DNA of 53,803 bases from Pseudomonadota bacterium (GTDB taxonomy: Bacteria > Pseudomonadota > Alphaproteobacteria > Acetobacterales > Acetobacteraceae), in assembly GCA_018240405.1 (NCBI GenBank), contig JAFEFW010000003.1, positions 1 through 53,803 of the forward strand. Reading direction: 5' to 3'. Below, one piece after another: positions 2,911-10,592 of the stretch. Positions within the stretch are counted from its first letter, which is position 1. Every line of letters begins with the position of its first letter. The notes beneath the pieces are model-generated. The model had not been told where the DNA came from, searched no databases, and saw nothing but the letters and a program-made list of their open reading frames with translations. The translations under genes and the position numbers were made by a program.

Positions 2911-4107
2911 TTACGCCGGCATCAGCTTCCACCGCTCCTTGTCGAACTGCGCCATCTGGAATTTTTCGATCGGATAGTGATCCGTCGCGCTGGTCGTGAT
3001 CTTCGAGCCTGGCAGCAGCAGTGGCAGCGGAAAGTTCAAATTCTCGGCCTGACGCATGATGTTTTCCCGCGACAGGTCATTGCCGCACTGCGTCAGAACC
3101 TGCACGATCGTCTGGGCCGTTGAATAGCCGTAGACGTTGGACAGATCCGCTGCATCGCCATCGGGAAAATCCGACTTCATCCAGGCGAAGTAGCCGCGTA
3201 CGCCTTCATCGCTGGCCCACTCCTCATCGTTCGGATCCTTCAGGTAGAAGGCACTGATGATCCCCTGCGCCTTCTCGAAGCCAGCCGGCCGGATGGCGCT
3301 GGCAACCGAAGTGCCGGTGCTGGACAGGAAGAAGGTCGGCTTCCATCCCATTTCGTAGACCTTGCGGATCCCCAGGGCCGAGAACTTCGGATTTGACGCC
3401 AGCAGCAGCGTATCGGCACCGGACTGTTTCGCCGCCACGATCTGCGAGTCCAGCGTCGGGTCCGTCACCTCGTACGTCGTGCGCAGCGCAATCATCTGCG
3501 CCGCCTTGTCGCCGAAGCCACGCGTGCAGCCGTCCATGTAGTCGCGTCCGGAATCATCGTTCTGGCCCATCATCGCCAGGCGGGCACTTGGCTTGGTGCG
3601 GATCAGCCACTCGGCATAGGCGGCGCCCTCGGCCGAGTAAGTCGGCGCCCAGCCCATGCTGAACGGAAACGATTTCTGGTCGCCCCAGAAGGTTGCCCCG
3701 GAGCCGATGAACAACTGCGGAATCTTCTTGTCGTTCAGGTATTTGCGCGTCGCCACACTGGTCGGCGTGCCAAGTGGCGCGAAGATGAAGGACACCTGCT
3801 CCTGCTCGATCAACCGGCGCGTCTGCTCGACCGTCTTGGGCGGACTGTAGCCATCGTCGAGGCTGACGAACTCAATCTGCCTTCCGTTGATGCCGCCGGC
3901 CTTGTTCACAGTGCGGAAATACGCCGCGTGGGACCGCCCGATCGTTCCGTAGGCCGAGGCAGGGCCGCTATACGGCATGGTCTGGCCAATCTTGATCGTC
4001 GTGGCGGTCACACCCGGCGGAAACGATTGCGCCCGAGCGCGGCGGCCGGCCGCGATACCAAGCGCGGCCGCTGGCGCAAGGGCCAGTGCGTTCCGACGTG
4101 TCAACAT
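2911..4107 (-). CDS. ABC transporter substrate-binding protein, branched-chain amino acid type (Peripla_BP_6)
   Basis: A 398-residue periplasmic binding protein of the Leu/Ile/Val (LivJ/urea) superfamily. The N-terminus (MLTRRNALALAPAAALGIAAG, then ARAQ) looks like a twin-arginine-type export signal with cleavage near residue 27. The mature part starts with the family pattern TTIKIGQTMPYSGPASAYG, followed by INGRQIEFVSLDDGYSP and the RLIEQEQVSFIFAPLGT block. No permease or ATPase gene lies nearby, so it is an orphan binding protein here; the ligand may be an aromatic or small acid rather than an amino acid. It is transcribed divergently from the flavoprotein gene, with 129 bases between the two starts. 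Confidence 0.92.
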   Translation of the reverse strand: MLTRRNALALAPAAALGIAAGRRARAQSFPPGVTATTIKIGQTMPYSGPASAYGTIGRSHAAYFRTVNKAGGINGRQIEFVSLDDGYSPPKTVEQTRRLIEQEQVSFIFAPLGTPTSVATRKYLNDKKIPQLFIGSGATFWGDQKSFPFSMGWAPTYSAEGAAYAEWLIRTKPSARLAMMGQNDDSGRDYMDGCTRGFGDKAAQMIALRTTYEVTDPTLDSQIVAAKQSGADTLLLASNPKFSALGIRKVYEMGWKPTFFLSSTGTSVASAIRPAGFEKAQGIISAFYLKDPNDEEWASDEGVRGYFAWMKSDFPDGDAADLSNVYGYSTAQTIVQVLTQCGNDLSRENIMRQAENLNFPLPLLLPGSKITTSATDHYPIEKFQMAQFDKERWKLMPA

Positions 4108-4236
4108 ATTGTACCTCCCTGGTTCTTCTTTATGACGGCCGACAATAATGGTTCGGTTGCCGCCACGTCCAGCATCGTGCGGTCGCCGAACATGGCGCGG
4201 CGGTGCATAACGCGCGGGGACGAAGGAGCCTGCGGC

Positions 4237-5118
4237 ATGGCGGAATGGGACGTGGTGGTGATTGGCGGCGGCGCGGCAGGCCTCAGCGCAGCGGCTACGG
4301 TAGCGGCGAGGGGTCTACGCTGTCTTGTGATTGACCGAATGGGCGGCGGTGGCGAATTGATGAATCTGGGCACGCTGCACGACATGGATGAGGCGCTCAC
4401 CGGCCCCGACCTCGCCGCGCGCTTGCTGGAGGACGCAACGAATGCCGGTGCGGAGCTCGGCATCGCCGAGGTCAGCGGCCTGCGACGCGACGGCGACCGC
4501 TGGCGGGTCGTTACCGAGGATGAACCCCACATCGCCAGGACTGTCATCCTCGCTGTCGGTCTCGCTCCCGGCACGCTGGGGCTGGACAATGAGGCAGCAT
4601 TCGAGGGCCGTGGGCTGTCGCATTGTGCTGCCTGCGATGGGCCACTCTACGCCGGCCAGAGCGTCGTGGTTGCCGGCGCCGACCGCTGGGCGCAGCTTGA
4701 GGCGTCGGAACTTGTCGGTACTGCATCGGACGTGACGCTGGTGACGCAGGGCCAGGCCGCACCTCAGTTGGAGGGCGTCCTCGTCAGGACCGGGCGGGTG
4801 ACCCGATTGCACGGCGACAACGGGCTGGAGTCCGTTACGATCTCGGATGAGCAAGGCGCGGCGCCGCTGCCGGCCTACGCGATCTTCATCCAGACCGGCC
4901 GGCGGCCGTCGCTCGGTTTTGTGCCGGAGGACCTGGCGTGCGATGACGCCGGCAGGATCGTTACCGATCCGGCGCTTACAACGAACCTGCCTGAGCTGTA
5001 CGCCGTCGGCGACGCCCGCAGCGGGTCGCCTCGGACGATCGCCGCGGCGATCGCCGACGGGCAGCACGCCGCCGCTTCCTCCCCTCTCCCCTCCCCTCTT
5101 GGCAAGCCGCCCGAATAG
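4237..5118 (+). CDS. Thioredoxin-reductase-like FAD/NAD(P)-dependent oxidoreductase
   Basis: A 293-residue flavoprotein resembling low-Mr thioredoxin reductase, slightly shorter than the usual 310-320. It has an N-terminal FAD site (VVVIGGGAAGLSAA, residues 6-19), a redox CxxC pair Cys130-Ala-Ala-Cys133 in HCAACDGPLYAG, and the C-terminal FAD motif LYAVGDARSG near 255. The pyridine-nucleotide loop reads VVVAGADRWAQLEA rather than the standard GGGDSAxEEA, so nucleotide use may be altered. I chose the ATG at 4237 because AAGGAG lies just upstream and upstream codons run into the divergent gene. The last 13 residues are a Ser/Pro-rich tail encoded by a pyrimidine-rich run. A selenoprotein follows after 37 bases, which suggests this enzyme is its reductase. 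Confidence 0.88.
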   Translation: MAEWDVVVIGGGAAGLSAAATVAARGLRCLVIDRMGGGGELMNLGTLHDMDEALTGPDLAARLLEDATNAGAELGIAEVSGLRRDGDRWRVVTEDEPHIARTVILAVGLAPGTLGLDNEAAFEGRGLSHCAACDGPLYAGQSVVVAGADRWAQLEASELVGTASDVTLVTQGQAAPQLEGVLVRTGRVTRLHGDNGLESVTISDEQGAAPLPAYAIFIQTGRRPSLGFVPEDLACDDAGRIVTDPALTTNLPELYAVGDARSGSPRTIAAAIADGQHAAASSPLPSPLGKPPE

Positions 5119-5155
5119 CGCTGTGATGTCCGGTGTTGGGTAGAGGGAACGCAAC

Positions 5156-5674
5156 ATGCGCATCGTGAATCCCAGCTACGGGATCGCGCCGCAAGGCGAG
5201 GGTTCGGCAACCGCCGGCCCCGTCGACTGGGCCAACGATCCCATCATTCTGTTCTCTAACAACAAGCCCAACGCGAAGGAATTGCTGGAGGGTGTCCGCA
5301 ACCGCCTTTCTGCCATCCGCCGCGTGGACAACATCGACTACATCGCCAAGGGCAGCGCCAGCCAACCGGCGCCGCCTGAGATGATCAACGAAGTGGCGCG
5401 CAAGTACCGCATCGCGTTGCTTGCGCTGGGCGACTGAGGGTCCTGCTCATCGTGGAGTTTCCACGACAGCATTGAACTACGGAAACGAGGCCTGGCGGGG
5501 GTGGTGATAGCCACCGAAACGTTCCGGCCATTGGTCCTGGCCCAGGCCAAGGCGCGTAAGCTCGAACCGCACCTGATCGTGGTGAAGCATCCCGTTGGCG
5601 GGTTGAACACCGCGGAACTGCAGGATCGGATCGACACCGCGTTCGAAGGCCTGAAGCTGGAGATGAAGGGGTAA
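5156..5674 (+). CDS. UGSC-type selenoprotein with in-frame UGA (selenocysteine at residue 94)
   Basis: The frame opens with MRIVNPSYG after an AGAGGGA ribosome site and runs 93 codons to TGA at 5435-5437. The same frame continues for 78 codons to TAA at 5672-5674. Read through, the junction is ...LLALGD-U-GSCSSWSFHDSIELRKRG, giving a 172-residue protein. From memory, the UGSC-containing (seleno)protein family has this layout: an N-terminal IVNP block, a Pro-rich segment like SASQPAPPE, then GD-U/C-GSC. Sec94-Gly-Ser-Cys97 is a CxxC-like pair, suggesting selenenylsulfide redox chemistry. A SECIS-like hairpin lies just 3' of the codon. The gene sits between a thioredoxin-reductase-like flavoprotein and two paralogous cysteine proteins. 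selA, selB and selC must lie elsewhere. The biochemical function is unknown. A call ending at 5437 would be a truncation artefact. Confidence 0.88.
5435..5437 (+). other. Selenocysteine (UGA) recoding site
   Basis: TGA in frame between GGC-GAC and GGG-TCC-TGC, giving Gly-Asp-Sec-Gly-Ser-Cys. Homologous coding continues on both sides and the family is defined by U or C at this residue. Neighbouring genes use TGA as an ordinary stop, so this is site-specific recoding and not a changed genetic code. Confidence 0.86.
5444..5471 (+). promoter_or_regulatory. Bacterial SECIS-like stem-loop
   Basis: The upper stem pairs 5450-5455 (TCGTGG) with 5461-5466 (CCACGA), six perfect pairs, closed by a five-base loop AGTTT at 5456-5460. 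A lower stem pairs 5444-5447 (TGCT) with 5468-5471 (AGCA), separated by a small CA/C internal loop. The apical loop begins 18 bases after the UGA and has G as its second base followed by T. This fits the published bacterial SECIS pattern of a short hairpin within the coding sequence whose loop contains a G and which SelB binds. No folding program was run; the pairing was found by eye. Confidence 0.75.
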
Positions 5675-5695
5675 CCCTTCGTCACGACTGATCCG

Positions 5696-5727
5696 GGGCC
5701 GCGGGCGATGTCCGCGGCCCTTTCTGT
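5696..5727 (+). terminator. Hairpin with T-rich tail between selenoprotein and first companion gene
   Basis: Positions 5696-5704 (GGGCCGCGG) pair perfectly with 5712-5720, with a 7-base loop, followed by TTTCTGT. It looks like an intrinsic terminator, yet lies inside a same-strand gene set, 22 bases after the selenoprotein stop and about 20 before the next start. It may lower expression of the downstream genes or protect the upstream mRNA. Confidence 0.6.
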
Positions 5728-5744
5728 AAGAATTCGGAGATCGC

Positions 5745-6791
5745 ATGTCCGACGCCGCCGAAGCCGAACTGCTCGACATTCCGGAAATGGACGCCGATGC
5801 CTGGGCGGACTATGTCGAGGCACAGGGCTGGACCGACGGGTTGCCGCTGGTCGTGCCAACCGAGGACGCTGTGGCGCGCATGATGGACGGCGCCCGTGGC
5901 GATAATGAGCCCTTCCCCGCCATCACGCCACGCCAACTCATTCCGACCCTGCGCAGCCTGGCGGCCAATGCGGTGATGGCGGGCTGCCGCCCTGCCTATT
6001 TCCCAGTCGTGCTGTCGGCGCTGCGCGGCGTGCTGGTGGCCGACTACAATCTGCATGGCTCGCTGGCGACGACGCATGCGTGCGCGCCGATGATCATGGT
6101 GAACGGCCCGCTGCGACAAACGCTGAACATCAACTGCGGCACCAACTGCATGGGCCAGGGCTGGCGGGCCAATGCCGCTATCGGCAGAGCGCTGCAGCTG
6201 ATCCTGCTGAATATCGGCGGCGCCAAACCGGCGATCATGGACCGCTCGACTTTTGGCTCGCCGGCGAAATACACCTTCTGCTTCGGCGAAAATGAGGAGG
6301 AAAGCCCGTTCCCGCCCTACCACGTCCGCCACGGCTTCAACGCCATCGAAGGGGTGGTGACGGTGATGTCCGCCGAACCAAACCACAACCTGAACGACCA
6401 CGGCAGCACCACGGGCAAGGGAATCCTGACCACATTTGCCGGAGCGATCGCCTCGCCGGCGGCTAACACAGTCTACGCCAAGGGGCCGTTCTTCATCGTT
6501 TTCGGGCCGGAACACGCGGCGACGCTGGCGCGGGACAAGTTCACGGTCGAGCAGGTTCAGCAATTCCTCTACGATAAGGCCCGCGTGCCGGTGGACCAGG
6601 TATCGCCAGAGAATCATCAAATCTACGCCGAATCGGGCCACTTGCCGGAGAACGGCTTCTATCGGGTCGCGCCAACGCCGGACGACATCCATGTCGCCGT
6701 CGCAGGTGGCCCCGGCAAGCACTCGGCGTGGATTCCATCCTTTGGCGGCACGGCGGCAATTTCGGTGCGGGTGAAACCGCCCGCAGCCTGA
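5745..6791 (+). CDS. Uncharacterised UGSC-linked protein, paralogue 1 (two conserved cysteines)
   Basis: A 348-residue protein of a family I cannot name with certainty. It is a clear paralogue of the product at 7048-8046. Shared blocks are DGLPLVVPTE (31-40), MAGCRPAYFPVVL (78-90, Cys81), VNGP (119-122), GTNCMGQGWRANAAIGRAL (132-150, Cys135), LNIGGAKP (155-162), SPAKY (172-176) and DDIH (313-316) followed by a Gly-rich strand. It has extra cysteines at 113, 131 and 179. No signal peptide or membrane segment is visible, so it is probably cytoplasmic. A GGAG ribosome site precedes the ATG. Its position after the selenoprotein suggests it acts with it, perhaps as the catalytic or substrate-binding partner; this is inference from context only. 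Confidence 0.8.
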   Translation: MSDAAEAELLDIPEMDADAWADYVEAQGWTDGLPLVVPTEDAVARMMDGARGDNEPFPAITPRQLIPTLRSLAANAVMAGCRPAYFPVVLSALRGVLVADYNLHGSLATTHACAPMIMVNGPLRQTLNINCGTNCMGQGWRANAAIGRALQLILLNIGGAKPAIMDRSTFGSPAKYTFCFGENEEESPFPPYHVRHGFNAIEGVVTVMSAEPNHNLNDHGSTTGKGILTTFAGAIASPAANTVYAKGPFFIVFGPEHAATLARDKFTVEQVQQFLYDKARVPVDQVSPENHQIYAESGHLPENGFYRVAPTPDDIHVAVAGGPGKHSAWIPSFGGTAAISVRVKPPAA

Positions 6792-6865
6792 TGTTGTAGC
6801 GGCATCCGGGCAAAAGCAGTCTAGAGAGTCAACGGTCGGCTGGGCGGCGGGCGATTAGGGGATCG

Positions 6866-6989
6866 TAACCACAGATGAACACAGATACACGCAGGCGTTG
6901 CGTTTGTAGCCGGCACTTGGTGAAGAACTTTAGCAATCAGCCATACTCGGCAAATATAATCTGTGTTTATCTGTGTTCATCTGTGGTTA
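6866..6989. repeat. Inverted-repeat element, 22-bp perfect arms (possible MITE/REP-like)
   Basis: The arm at 6866-6887 (TAACCACAGATGAACACAGA plus TA) is the exact reverse complement of 6968-6989. The 80 bases between include a further partial copy of the CTGTGT motif and an AT-rich stretch with TATAAT at 6955-6960. The whole 124 bases stand out as AT-rich against the GC-rich surroundings. The ACCACAGATGAACACAG type of sequence recurs in many bacterial genomes as short dispersed repeats. It separates the two paralogous companion genes and encodes no protein. Confidence 0.8.
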
Positions 6990-7047
6990 AATTCCTTTCT
7001 TACTGTCAACGACCGTCTGCCGCTGCCGTACTGCTGGCATCGATGGA

Positions 7048-8046
7048 ATGACCGACCGAACAATCCCGGTCGGCGACCGCGACGCCCCGTTATTCGCAGC
7101 GGACACAGACTGGGACACGGCACAGGCGACCCTGCTGGAGGCGGACTTGGTCGATGGCCTGCCCGCCGTCGTCCCGACCGAAGCACGCCTGGCGGCGATG
7201 CTGGACGGCCGCGACGCAGGCATTTCGTTCGGCATGATGCCGCCGCTGTTCGGTGACATCACCGCGCAGGCGGTCGCCTATTGCTGCGTCATCGCCGGCT
7301 GCCGCCCGGCCGAGTTTCCCGTTGTCCTGGAAGCCGCCATCGCCACACTTGAGCCCGAATTCAACCTGCTGGGCATCCAGACCACCACCGGCACGCCAAC
7401 CGCCGCCGTCCTGGTACACGGCCCGGCCACGCAACGGCTTGTCATGAATGCCGGCACCAATTGCCTTGGTCCCGGCAATCGAACCAATGCCTGCATTGGA
7501 CGCGCGCTGCGCCTGGTGCTGACGAATATCGGCGGCGCCCGACCACTGGTCGGCGACATGGCAACGATGGGGCAGCCAGCGAAATACGGCATGGCCTTCG
7601 CCGAGGGCACGCATCCGTTGGCCGAACCGCTGCCGGTTCGGCGCCGACTGCAGCCGGGAGAAAGCGCCGTCACGGTCATCGGCCTGTCCGGCACCATCGA
7701 AGTGCTGCCGGAAGCCGGCGCCGCAACGCCCGAGGCGGTACTGCGCCCGGCGCTGGCCGCCATGCAGGCCGGCCGTATCGCCGGATCGGGCGGACGGCAA
7801 CGCGAACCCGGTGAGCAATTCCTGCTGCTACCGCCTGAAATGGCGGATGTGATCGCCAAGGGCTGCTGGAGCTTCCGACAAGCGCAGGAATTCCTGTTCA
7901 ATGCCGGCGGTTCAGCCTGGCCGATCGCGCGGTCGGCCGACGACATCCACCTGATCGTCACCGGCGGCGCCGGGGTGAAGATGACGTGCCTGGTGCCCTG
8001 GGGCGGCGGCACAATCTGCGTCACGCGACGGCTGCCGGGGCTGTAG
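7048..8046 (+). CDS. Uncharacterised UGSC-linked protein, paralogue 2 (two conserved cysteines)
   Basis: A 332-residue paralogue of the 5745-6791 product. It keeps DGLPAVVPTE (36-45), IAGCRPAEFPVVL (82-94, Cys85), VHGP (123-126), GTNCLGPGNRTNACIGRAL (136-154, Cys139), TNIGGARP (159-166), MGQPAKYGMAFAEG (174-187) and DDIH (298-301). The two cysteines shared with paralogue 1 are therefore Cys85 and Cys139; the rest differ. The ribosome site before the ATG is weak, and the gene lies directly after an inverted-repeat element that may have been inserted between the two copies. Two divergent paralogues side by side may form a heteromer. Function unknown. Confidence 0.8.
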   Translation: MTDRTIPVGDRDAPLFAADTDWDTAQATLLEADLVDGLPAVVPTEARLAAMLDGRDAGISFGMMPPLFGDITAQAVAYCCVIAGCRPAEFPVVLEAAIATLEPEFNLLGIQTTTGTPTAAVLVHGPATQRLVMNAGTNCLGPGNRTNACIGRALRLVLTNIGGARPLVGDMATMGQPAKYGMAFAEGTHPLAEPLPVRRRLQPGESAVTVIGLSGTIEVLPEAGAATPEAVLRPALAAMQAGRIAGSGGRQREPGEQFLLLPPEMADVIAKGCWSFRQAQEFLFNAGGSAWPIARSADDIHLIVTGGAGVKMTCLVPWGGGTICVTRRLPGL

Positions 8047-8056
8047 CCTCACCGGT

Positions 8057-8581
8057 TCAAGCTTCGCGGCGGACGAAGGTCCGGATGCGGTGGACGACGC
8101 CCTCGGCGTCCAGCACCGTTGCAACGTAGGATTGCCCGTCCGGCGCCATCCGCCGCAGCATGACGTTCTGCGGGGAGCCGTCTTCCGCCTTGCCAATGCG
8201 GTAATGCGTGCGCTCATCGACATAGACCGTGCGTACCAGGCCATAGGGCCGCCCAACCTCGAAATTGCGCGCGTTCGGGCCTTCGGTCGCGCCGATGCGG
8301 GCACGGAACTTTGCCACCGCATCCGCCTGGCTCTCGCCGGGCCGGCCGATGATCTCGCGCACGGCATATGGTACCCACTCCGGCGAGTCATAGCGGCTGG
8401 TGTAGCCCATGCGGATGACCGGATCGTTGCCATAAAGCACTTCGTAGTCCTGCACGCCGTCCTCGATCCGCAGCGTGATGATCTCTTCGCCGACCTCGTC
8501 AGGGACATAGGTGCCGGTTGCGGCGTCCCATTTGCTGCTGCGCGCCAGATCGATTTTCCAGGTGCCGTTGAAGACCGACAT
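8057..8581 (-). CDS. Conserved hypothetical protein (possibly a small beta-barrel)
   Basis: A 174-residue protein I do not recognise. It starts MSVFNGTWKIDLARSSKWD, reminiscent of lipocalin-like small proteins that open with a G-x-W motif, and is rich in alternating beta-type segments with many charged residues. There is no signal peptide, membrane segment or cysteine pair. It is convergent with the second UGSC-linked gene (10-base gap) and divergent from the Rieske oxygenase gene, whose start is 110 bases away, so it may share a control region with that operon. Confidence 0.7.
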   Translation of the reverse strand: MSVFNGTWKIDLARSSKWDAATGTYVPDEVGEEIITLRIEDGVQDYEVLYGNDPVIRMGYTSRYDSPEWVPYAVREIIGRPGESQADAVAKFRARIGATEGPNARNFEVGRPYGLVRTVYVDERTHYRIGKAEDGSPQNVMLRRMAPDGQSYVATVLDAEGVVHRIRTFVRREA

Positions 8582-8691
8582 GAACCTCTTCCCCCGTGGA
8601 CTGGATTATCCGGCGAACTGCTGCCGCCGATGCCGGACGGTATGACAATCCGGCACGGCCACGCTACGCTCCACGGCAAAGGGAGGTAACC

Positions 8692-9921
8692 ATGGACCAG
8701 GCCTACCAGCTGCAAGCCTCAGCGCCAGCCACCCTGACCCGCGTGCCATTCCACTGGTACCAGGACACGGCGCTGCTGCAGCAGGAACAGCGCGAGGTTT
8801 TCGAGGGTCCGGTCTGGAACTATCTGTGTATCGAGTCCGACATTCCGAATCCCGGCGACTGGCGCACGACCTTCGTCGGCCGCATGTCCGTCGTCGTCGT
8901 CCGCACGGAAGACGGAACGATCACCGCCTTCGAGAATCGCTGCCTGCACCGCGGCGCGCTGATCTGCTTCGACAATGCCGGCAACAGCAAGGACTTCACC
9001 TGCGTCTACCACTCCTGGCGCTACGACCTGTCCGGCAACCTGAAATCCATCGCCTTCGGCAAGGGCGTCAACGGCAAGGGCGGCATGCCGGAAACGTTCC
9101 GCATGCAGGAGCACCAGACCCGCAAGCTGCGTATCGCCTCGCTCAGCGGCATCGTCTTCGGCACCTTCTCCGATGCCACGCCGCCAATCGAGGAGTATGT
9201 CGGTCCCGACGTGCTGTTCGCGCTCCGCCGCAATGCCAGCAAGCCCCTGCGGGTCATCGGCCGATTCACCGAGGTGCTGCCGAACAACTGGAAGATGTAC
9301 GCCGAGAATGTCCGCGACACCTACCACGCCAGCCTGCTGCACGTGTTCTTCGCCACATTCCGCATCAATCGCCTGAGCCAGGGCGGCGGCGTCACCGTCA
9401 GTGACAATGGCGGCTGCCACGTCTCCACCACGCTGGCCCCAACGGAGGATCAGGACAACGCCTATGCCGGGATGCGATCCGTCGACGATGGGCTGCGCTT
9501 GTCGGATCCGTCGATGCTGGACGCGGCGGATGAACACGGTGACCGCGTGCGGCAGCAGATCATCGGGGTGTTTCCTTCGTTCGCCATGCAGCGCACCTAC
9601 AATGTGCTGGCGATCCGGCAGTTCGTGCCGAAAGGCGTGGACAGCACCGACCTGAACTGGATCTACCTTGGCTACCAAGACGATTCGCCGGTACTACGCA
9701 AACGCCGGCTGAAGCAGCTGAACCTTGCCGGACCTGCCGGTTTCGTTTCCATGGAGGATGGCTGCATCGGCAACTTCGTCGAACGTGGCGCCGCCGCCGC
9801 GCCGGATGCGCTGTCACTGCTGGAAATGGGTGGCGACGGCGTGGAAAGCCAGGAGACACGAGCGACCGAGACAGCGGTGCGCGGCTTCTGGCAGATGTGG
9901 CGCAGGCTGATGCGGATCTGA
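8692..9921 (+). CDS. Rieske aromatic-ring-hydroxylating oxygenase, large (alpha) subunit
   Basis: A 409-residue oxygenase alpha subunit that would insert oxygen into an aromatic or related ring using electrons from a ferredoxin/reductase not seen here. The Rieske [2Fe-2S] site is Cys84-x-His86 and Cys104-x2-His107. The mononuclear iron site follows the textbook spacing: bridging Asp209, then His212 and His217 in ENVRDTYHASLLH. I chose ATG 8692 because GGGAGG lies seven bases upstream; the frame extends to 8596 but that part looks non-coding. The beta subunit gene starts five bases after the stop. The substrate cannot be read from sequence. Confidence 0.93.
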   Translation: MDQAYQLQASAPATLTRVPFHWYQDTALLQQEQREVFEGPVWNYLCIESDIPNPGDWRTTFVGRMSVVVVRTEDGTITAFENRCLHRGALICFDNAGNSKDFTCVYHSWRYDLSGNLKSIAFGKGVNGKGGMPETFRMQEHQTRKLRIASLSGIVFGTFSDATPPIEEYVGPDVLFALRRNASKPLRVIGRFTEVLPNNWKMYAENVRDTYHASLLHVFFATFRINRLSQGGGVTVSDNGGCHVSTTLAPTEDQDNAYAGMRSVDDGLRLSDPSMLDAADEHGDRVRQQIIGVFPSFAMQRTYNVLAIRQFVPKGVDSTDLNWIYLGYQDDSPVLRKRRLKQLNLAGPAGFVSMEDGCIGNFVERGAAAAPDALSLLEMGGDGVESQETRATETAVRGFWQMWRRLMRI

Positions 9922-10381: not shown

Positions 10382-10464
10382 CCCGCGCCGCCAGGCGCCC
10401 TTGATTTGCGATGCGCGGCGCCTACCTACTCACCATAATCGATCCGGGCCCCTCTGGCAGGACG

Positions 10465-10480
10465 CCGGCAATCATGCCGG
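10465..10480 (+). terminator. Short hairpin downstream of oxygenase operon
   Basis: CCGGCA at 10465-10470 pairs with TGCCGG at 10475-10480 around a four-base loop, followed by TTAACCTT. It lies 84 bases after the beta subunit stop. The T tract is poor, so this is only a candidate terminator. Confidence 0.35.
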
Positions 10481-10592
10481 TTAACCTTGCGATGTCGGAT
10501 CACCGCGCGCTATGCAGCGAGCGGCTGTGGCCCGATCGCCTCTGCCCGACCTGCTCCCAGCGTGTGATGCCAACCGCAAGAAGGAGCCGGCC

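Follow-up and report, generated by a model that had tools for sequence, protein, structure and literature searches.

The stretch of DNA described here, called the window throughout, is the 53,803-nucleotide segment of contig JAFEFW010000003.1 in assembly GCA_018240405.1, which belongs to a bacterium of the Acetobacteraceae (Alphaproteobacteria). It contains a gene of the UGSC family, a family of proteins with selenocysteine (Sec, U) or cysteine (Cys) at the first position of a [U/C]GSC motif, together with two adjacent partner genes and a thioredoxin-reductase-like gene. Judged from sequence, the UGSC gene almost certainly encodes a true selenoprotein in which UGA 5435-5437 is read as Sec, and UGSC and its partner very probably form a two-subunit enzyme. 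The features at the locus are as follows.

4228 to 5118, plus strand: thioredoxin-reductase-like flavoprotein with a CAAC motif, matching TIGR01292 (E 2e-49, 168.1 bits) and Pyr_redox_2
5156 to 5674, plus strand: UGSC-family selenoprotein gene, from ATG 5156 to TAA 5672-5674, 172 residues with Sec94 and Cys97
5435 to 5437, plus strand: in-frame TGA codon of Sec94; TGA stands at the motif in 34 genes, the window gene included
5444 to 5471, plus strand: predicted selenocysteine insertion sequence (SECIS) hairpin, inner stem 5450-5455 with 5461-5466, loop AGUUU; conserved and covarying over 34 Sec genes
5745 to 6791, plus strand: partner A, 348 residues, without a Pfam or NCBIfam model, recognized by co-occurrence and fusions
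7048 to 8046, plus strand: partner B, 332 residues, a paralogue of A (35% identical)

Under the standard code, the frame that starts at ATG 5156 downstream of a ribosome-binding-like AGAGGGAA is listed as an open reading frame (ORF) of 93 residues and none longer. The original prediction held that this frame runs on past TGA 5435-5437 and encodes a UGSC-type selenoprotein, and the open frame is indeed there: 78 codons follow the TGA, ending at TAA 5672-5674, and with TGA as Sec the 172-residue product carries the motif D-U94-G-S-C97. Taken alone, 78 open codons are possible by chance, and standard ORF calling stops at the TGA, as it would if the codon were a true stop and the downstream frame a remnant left by a pseudogene or a sequencing error. 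A chance open frame is excluded by a Pfam match across the TGA, by a homologue in another genome, and by a covarying SECIS element. The UGSC model PF24696 gives a single match that spans the TGA (112.1 bits against a cut-off of 25), aligning residues 4-163 with model positions 3-163 of 172, and the family named in the original prediction was the right one. The homologue at locus L029 is 66% identical to the window protein and has TGA at the same codon. Between the two genes the half after the TGA is conserved more strongly (73% identity, dN 0.23, dS 0.91 by the NG86 method) than the half before it (60% identity, dN 0.37, dS 1.14). The window protein is a divergent member of the known UGSC Pfam family.

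The inner stem of the hairpin starts 12 nucleotides after the UGA and the loop 18 nucleotides after it, a spacing that agrees with the distance rule for SECIS elements. Folded as a single sequence, the window hairpin is unremarkable (-13.1 kcal/mol, z -1.49, with 14 of 200 shuffled sequences as good), and comparative evidence was therefore used. Of the 34 Sec genes, 26 have all six inner pairs, as do 21 of the 84 Cys genes, a control unmatched by taxon; the conserved peptide itself forces some of the pairs. If the same peptides were encoded with synonymous codons picked at random, 2.6 complete stems would be expected among 34. A G is found among the first two loop bases in 34/34 Sec genes as opposed to 25/84 Cys genes. 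In the alignment of the 34 Sec stretches, 96.1% of alignment cells are paired compared with 91.4% after shuffling, three of the six inner pairs have changed on both sides, and covariation scores 0.205 compared with 0.105 in shuffles, none of 500 of which scored as high. Next to the loop, 31 genes have a C-G pair and three, namely the window, L029 and L038, have a G-C pair; these three have the Trp codon TGG at a place where the other genes have TGC (GGC in L124), and their opposite codon has changed as well. This comparative evidence indicates that UGA 5435-5437 is decoded via the SECIS hairpin downstream.

The source genome (7.37 Mb in 681 contigs, 97.57% complete, 0.74% contamination) carries the full selenocysteine machinery. 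The tRNA-Sec lies on contig C583 (73.1 bits; anticodon tca, confirmed by ARAGORN) directly adjoining selA, selB lies on C521 (407.8 bits, cut-off 242.25) and selD on C189 (287.2 bits, cut-off 125). The search of the genome for sel genes that was proposed with the original prediction thus finds tRNA-Sec, selA, selB and selD all present above curated cut-offs. The selD gene is located within a 709-codon open frame whose N-terminal half looks, by eye, like an FAD-dependent oxidoreductase; this frame is probably an Ndh-SelD fusion as described in the pertinent passage of PMC2398784. A second UGSC gene with TGA is found on contig C188 with a partner-family gene directly upstream, and this second pair (C188:12269-13835) is flanked by genes that resemble MFS transporters by eye. 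Against a true stop, then, stand the 34 genes with TGA at this codon, the stronger constraint on the half after the TGA, the covariation of the SECIS stem, and the complete Sec machinery. On these grounds the pseudogene reading is rejected, and we regard a true stop at this codon as extremely improbable.

UGSC was found in 5 of 398 genomes drawn from the phylum and in 38 of 385 drawn from the class. The class draw gave 98 matches, of which, by hand count, 93 contain exactly one TGA and five contain none. The position of the TGA was looked at in 28 of these 93, and in all 28 new loci (L121-L148) it stands at the motif. One in-frame TGA is by itself no proof of Sec, since L027 has a single TGA elsewhere and Cys in the motif. 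One genome of the collection (G622) has eight UGSC matches, each with one TGA, an unusually expanded family. A separate scan of species genomes with a Cys-containing pattern, which makes its result uninformative on Sec frequency, yielded 79 loci, among them loci of Pseudomonadota, Actinomycetota, Bacteroidota, Myxococcota, haloarchaea and Methanobacteriaceae. At the aligned motif position, a script that selects [Sec/Cys]-G-x-C, in whose counts other residues cannot appear, finds TGA in 34 genes and Cys in 84. Before counting, L022, L023, L030 and L031 were removed because they duplicate the loci of the window, L026 or L027; L027, whose frame is broken, was also kept out of the motif count, and the GrdB loci (L111-L120, L149-L154) out of the Sec/Cys counts. 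Homologues therefore do extend through the GSC segment with Sec or Cys at this place, as the original prediction anticipated, and [U/C]94 is invariant across the 45 aligned UGSC rows. When 123 domains (36 with Sec, 87 with Cys) are placed on a tree, the Sec label requires nine changes compared with a mean of 31.6 after shuffling, and at least six of the changes are forced by well-supported branches, so that Sec and Cys have been exchanged several times. The window and L029 make up one divergent branch of this tree; placements are unsure owing to several long branches, and L060_Cys_4247 is probably a chance match to the pattern.

In aquatic metagenomes UGSC proteins rank among the most frequent selenoproteins, with 255 Sec and 21 Cys sequences in the Global Ocean Sampling (GOS) data according to the relevant part of PMC2398784, and UGSC selenoproteins have also been described in Geodermatophilaceae, where the tRNA-Sec has the anticodon CUA. 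The portions of the UGSC literature that were found assign no function to UGSC, and their passages on UGSC name neither a partner gene nor homology to GrdB, a statement that leaves aside supplements and subscription papers. The original prediction also warned that gene callers would truncate such genes, and this has happened on two annotated plasmids. In Acidovorax sp. T1 plasmid p2-T1 (L157) a "hypothetical protein" ORF at 6410-6700 stops at the TGA that begins at 6698, and in Paracoccus ferrooxidans pFER4 (L160) a "hypothetical protein" ORF at 6420-6707 stops at the TGA from 6705, the remainder being annotated as a second ORF; on pFER4, selB lies about 4.4 kb downstream.

The partner family was recognized next to UGSC. 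Neither A nor B matches any Pfam or NCBIfam model at E<=0.1, and for 49 family members (28 partners including A and B, and 21 fusions) the best match, UGSC and GrdB-type matches excluded, has an E of 0.033 (Pfam) or 0.015 (NCBIfam). Sequence searches of the PDB gave nothing convincing with UGSC profiles, with partner A or with the A2 profile (best E 0.14). With A and B as tblastn queries, the family was found in 78 of the 79 loci, and the order A then B recurs in L029. The 79 loci hold 84 UGSC genes, one of them with Sec (the L038 fusion); 25 are fused to the partner in one frame, 56 have a partner on the same strand within 400 nucleotides (median gap 0), and three are neither fused nor near. 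These three belong to Methanobacteriaceae (L036, L060 and L062), where UGSC follows the same upstream gene clusters; at every other one of the 79 loci the pairing is close. In the Sec loci L121-L148, the partner is present within flanks of about 1.5 kb in 27 of 28, L136 being the locus that shows none there. A partner profile, built from partners and fusions but matched almost always from within the first 30 of its 364 positions and hence by the partner portion, hits the identical 38 of 385 class genomes as UGSC, with no genome having just one of the two (sets compared by eye).

Plasmids give the same picture. With single sequences as tblastn queries, the partner was found in 24 plasmid records (E limit 1e-10) and UGSC in only 10 (1e-4), counts that taken alone would speak against the pairing. 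Eight of the 24 partner records were opened, regions thus picked by partner matches, and in all eight a UGSC domain lies beside the partner or is fused to it, with the [U/C]GSC motif in seven. Three of these regions had been missed by the UGSC tblastn yet carry the domain, L159 by its motif and L156 and L158 by Pfam. In all eight the partner is annotated as a hypothetical protein or is unannotated. Since no Pfam or NCBIfam model covers the partner, and annotations truncate the Sec versions of UGSC, ordinary genome annotation overlooks the system. Co-occurrence and fusion together indicate that the UGSC partner is near-obligatory. Between UGSC and A, a GC-rich hairpin of 12 pairs at 5695-5721 is followed by TTTCT; the region 5688-5735 folds at -25.6 kcal/mol in RNAfold, and the hairpin could have a role in attenuating the operon transcript or in its processing. 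A terminator scan of 4000-9000 returned one site, compared with 3.4 expected, and none at 5695-5721.

A relationship to glycine reductase emerges at family level. At E<=1, 26 of 45 UGSC proteins match TIGR01917, the model of glycine reductase selenoprotein B (GrdB), with a best E of 2.7e-5; the sarcosine and betaine models are matched by 19 and 17, respectively, and PrdB, the proline relative, weakly by 4. HHalign of the 45 UGSC proteins with eight GrdB-type proteins gives a probability of 96.1% and E 2.9e-9 (for this comparison) over 98 columns and places the UGSC Sec on the GrdB Sec, while reversed-profile controls give 2.6% and 0.9%. Among 61 genomes of the L102 class, 7 carry GrdB-type genes, in ten loci, two of which (L116 and L117) did not parse with the motif script. 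By these profile comparisons, the UGSC small subunit and the C-terminal domain of the selenoproteins B of glycine, sarcosine and betaine reductases have a common ancestor.

This relationship bears on what kind of protein UGSC is. The 2008 GOS paper, in its passage on the family, suggested a thioredoxin-like fold, and the UxxC motif would suit a general thiol oxidoreductase of antioxidant or peroxidase type with incidental neighbours. A structure model of a Sec fusion (predicted template modelling score, pTM, 0.89) places its Sec95 between a strand and helix 96-111, and the order of elements in the UGSC domain is b-a-b-a-b-(Sec)-a-b-a-b-a, which differs from that of thioredoxin. Among the matches listed, domains of flavodoxin-, receiver- and Rossmann-like type are structurally closest, and thioredoxin folds do not appear, an absence that does not in itself exclude such a fold. 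A Foldseek search with the fusion model returned 1465 matches, none at E<=0.001, and the VIA structure-search rows mainly cover fusion residues 24-187, so that the partner domain is barely sampled. Together with these structural features, the homology to GrdB, the occurrence in the same 38 of 385 genomes as the partner, and the 25 fusions among 84 genes make a general thioredoxin-like oxidoreductase the less likely reading, and a distinctly improbable one.

The thioredoxin-reductase-like gene upstream is assigned the start ATG 4228, ahead of its FAD-binding motif, within a frame that is longest from GTG 3928, and its CxxC stands in the context HCAACDGPLY. It likely heads an operon with UGSC, and the order of this gene, UGSC, A and B is common to the window and L029. 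Its score with TIGR01292 is far under the cut-off of 343.45, which marks it as an enzyme of its own kind. Of the 79 loci, 11 have a CxxC protein of this type in their flanks, at a distance of 0.8-4.3 kb from UGSC; the loci are partly related, and in L070 and L084 the protein has a thioredoxin-like CxxC tail. At one or two such genes per genome, fewer than one would be expected, by estimate, in the 1.37 Mb of these loci. Among the plasmid regions, trxB is annotated in three of eight, and in Arthrobacter the order is trxB-trxA-partner-UGSC.

Wider neighbourhoods suggest a metabolic setting. By rough ORF clustering, the commonest neighbour cluster is CoA-transferase family III, in 19 of 86 loci including the window, whose member is supported by Pfam; the next, in 17 loci, includes the AMP-binding ligase of the window. 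Genes for TRAP or TTT carboxylate transporters occur in five of the eight plasmid regions. The two clusters and the transporters suggest that the context of UGSC is the catabolism of organic acids. A variant devoted to detoxification, removing for example halogen or nitro-linked substituents from xenobiotics, would instead fit the deazaflavin-dependent oxidoreductase, the ring-hydroxylating oxygenase pair and the glutathione S-transferase-like gene near the window UGSC, as well as the partner-UGSC pair on a plasmid of Variovorax from linuron-contaminated soil. The frequency of the CoA-transferase cluster and of the carboxylate transporters argues for ordinary carboxylate catabolism over such a specialized role, which we consider improbable for the window system. 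In L051 (5498-8367), a gene resembling 3-hydroxyacyl-CoA dehydrogenase and a BKACE gene precede the partner and UGSC, an arrangement reminiscent of the breakdown of carnitine to betaine, and betaine reductase is related to GrdB; the pathway link would be by analogy. Elsewhere in the window, at 10436-10507, there is an Rfam terC RNA element (44.8 bits, gathering score 39.9).

These observations can be assembled into a model of a two-subunit reductase working like glycine or proline reductase, which is moderately supported. Recoding signals, family, partner, fusions, GrdB homology and the reductase neighbour were established by computation; catalysis, electron path and substrate class we infer. 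UGSC would be the small Sec-bearing subunit, and the adjacent A and B would be the large subunit or subunits; in other organisms the small and large parts are located on one polypeptide. The large subunit would bind and activate a carboxylate or CoA-ester substrate, whose identity is a guess. The selenolate of Sec94, at the start of a helix, would attack the substrate and remove its alpha substituent, Cys97, as the other half of the redox pair suggested in the original prediction, would then resolve the selenium as a selenenylsulfide, and the flavoprotein encoded at 4228-5118 would re-reduce the enzyme, directly or via thioredoxin. We slightly favour such GrdB-like catalysis fed by a thioredoxin-type system. 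The roles may also be reversed, with UGSC as a redox donor whose sole task is to hold the partner, the true enzyme in this case, in its reduced form. Fusion and operon would fit a donor-acceptor pair, and the partner has conserved residues of its own (in A numbering D31, G32, A79, G80, T110, G121, G137, R148 and G321 are among those present in 49/49 rows, and the near-invariant C81 in 45/49). C81 is replaced in the other four rows, however, and in the mechanism proposed for D-proline reductase the Sec of the relative PrdB attacks the substrate carbon (PMC10298544, in the passage on its mechanism), so that we think the donor role unlikely.

Several results weigh against substrate attack by UGSC with thioredoxin-type reduction, or narrow the analogy. 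The window protein falls short of the curated cut-off of NF041046, "UGSC family (seleno)protein" (109.9 bits, cut-off 125), and the gene is accordingly filed in the Pfam family and not in the NCBIfam equivalog. By itself it has no match to GrdB-type models, and the UGSC/GrdB homology spans only about 100 columns. The partner shows no profile similarity to six GrdE sequences (HHalign 0.1%), which leaves the substrate-activating part of the glycine reductase analogy unproven. The motif is lost in L158 (Sporomusa termitida plasmid, 6308-8032), a UGSC-partner fusion that scores 28.3 bits, just above the Pfam cut-off, and has MGTS in place of [U/C]GSC; neither redox residue is thus universal, and the loss suggests that the chemistry there is changed or lost. 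Pairing is loose in L036 and L062, where the partner is about 1.4 kb away, and in L060 (Methanobrevibacter) no partner was found in the flanks. As to electron supply, the reductase-like gene occurs in a minority of loci (the 11 of 79, a count without a matched control), and the 1.5 kb flanks of the 28 Sec loci L121-L148 give no match to the thioredoxin-reductase-like protein of the window. The grd-operon thioredoxin system is said in the relevant part of PMC10880999 to reduce GrdA and not GrdB, and D-proline reductase is said in that of PMC10298544 not to use thioredoxin.

More tentatively still, UGSC and its partner may represent a widespread, undescribed class of reductases in which a Sec domain of the glycine reductase type is joined to a different substrate subunit. 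If this is true, the class is used far beyond the Stickland clostridia, in Pseudomonadota, Actinomycetota, Bacteroidota, haloarchaea and methanogens, for the reductive cleavage of carbon-heteroatom bonds paid for by a thioredoxin-type system; Sec and Cys would have replaced each other repeatedly in it, and a genome would have up to eight copies.

Compared with known systems, the window enzyme combines familiar and divergent parts. Its likeness to GrdB, GrdF, GrdH and PrdB lies in the C-terminal 100 or so residues, homologous at family level with Sec on Sec, whereas the N-terminal part of GrdB, about 330 residues, is missing from the window protein (172 residues compared with 431 model positions), and the UxxCxxC of GrdB is UGSCSSW in the window, with Trp at the second Cys, a further point against close equivalence. 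The window partner is not recognizable as GrdE, which is taken to be the pyruvoyl subunit of glycine reductase; PF09338 is not among the families listed for the 49 A2 rows, and the profiles gave no support for the partner as a GrdE relative (HHalign 0.1%). Clostridial grd operons likewise have their own trxA and trxB (trxA3/trxB3), although that system is said to serve GrdA (PMC10880999, in its account of these operons). Thioredoxin reductase as modelled by TIGR01292 is matched by the window flavoprotein with its CAAC motif, yet well below the equivalog cut-off. "Unknown_1", an uncharacterized domain fused to UGSC in GOS data in the portion of PMC2398784 on such fusions, may be the same as the partner. 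With the UGSC family itself, the window protein shares the domain-length match, the [U/C]GSC motif and the invariant P6, D104, F123 and P146; it differs in forming a divergent branch with L029 and in the Trp after the motif, and its operon differs in bringing together two partner paralogues and a thioredoxin-reductase-like gene. The family was known. What is added here, beyond the original prediction, is the partner with its fusions, the homology to GrdB and the recurring thioredoxin-reductase-like neighbour, which turn an "unknown redox protein" into a concrete two-subunit enzyme hypothesis and give its function a testable explanation.
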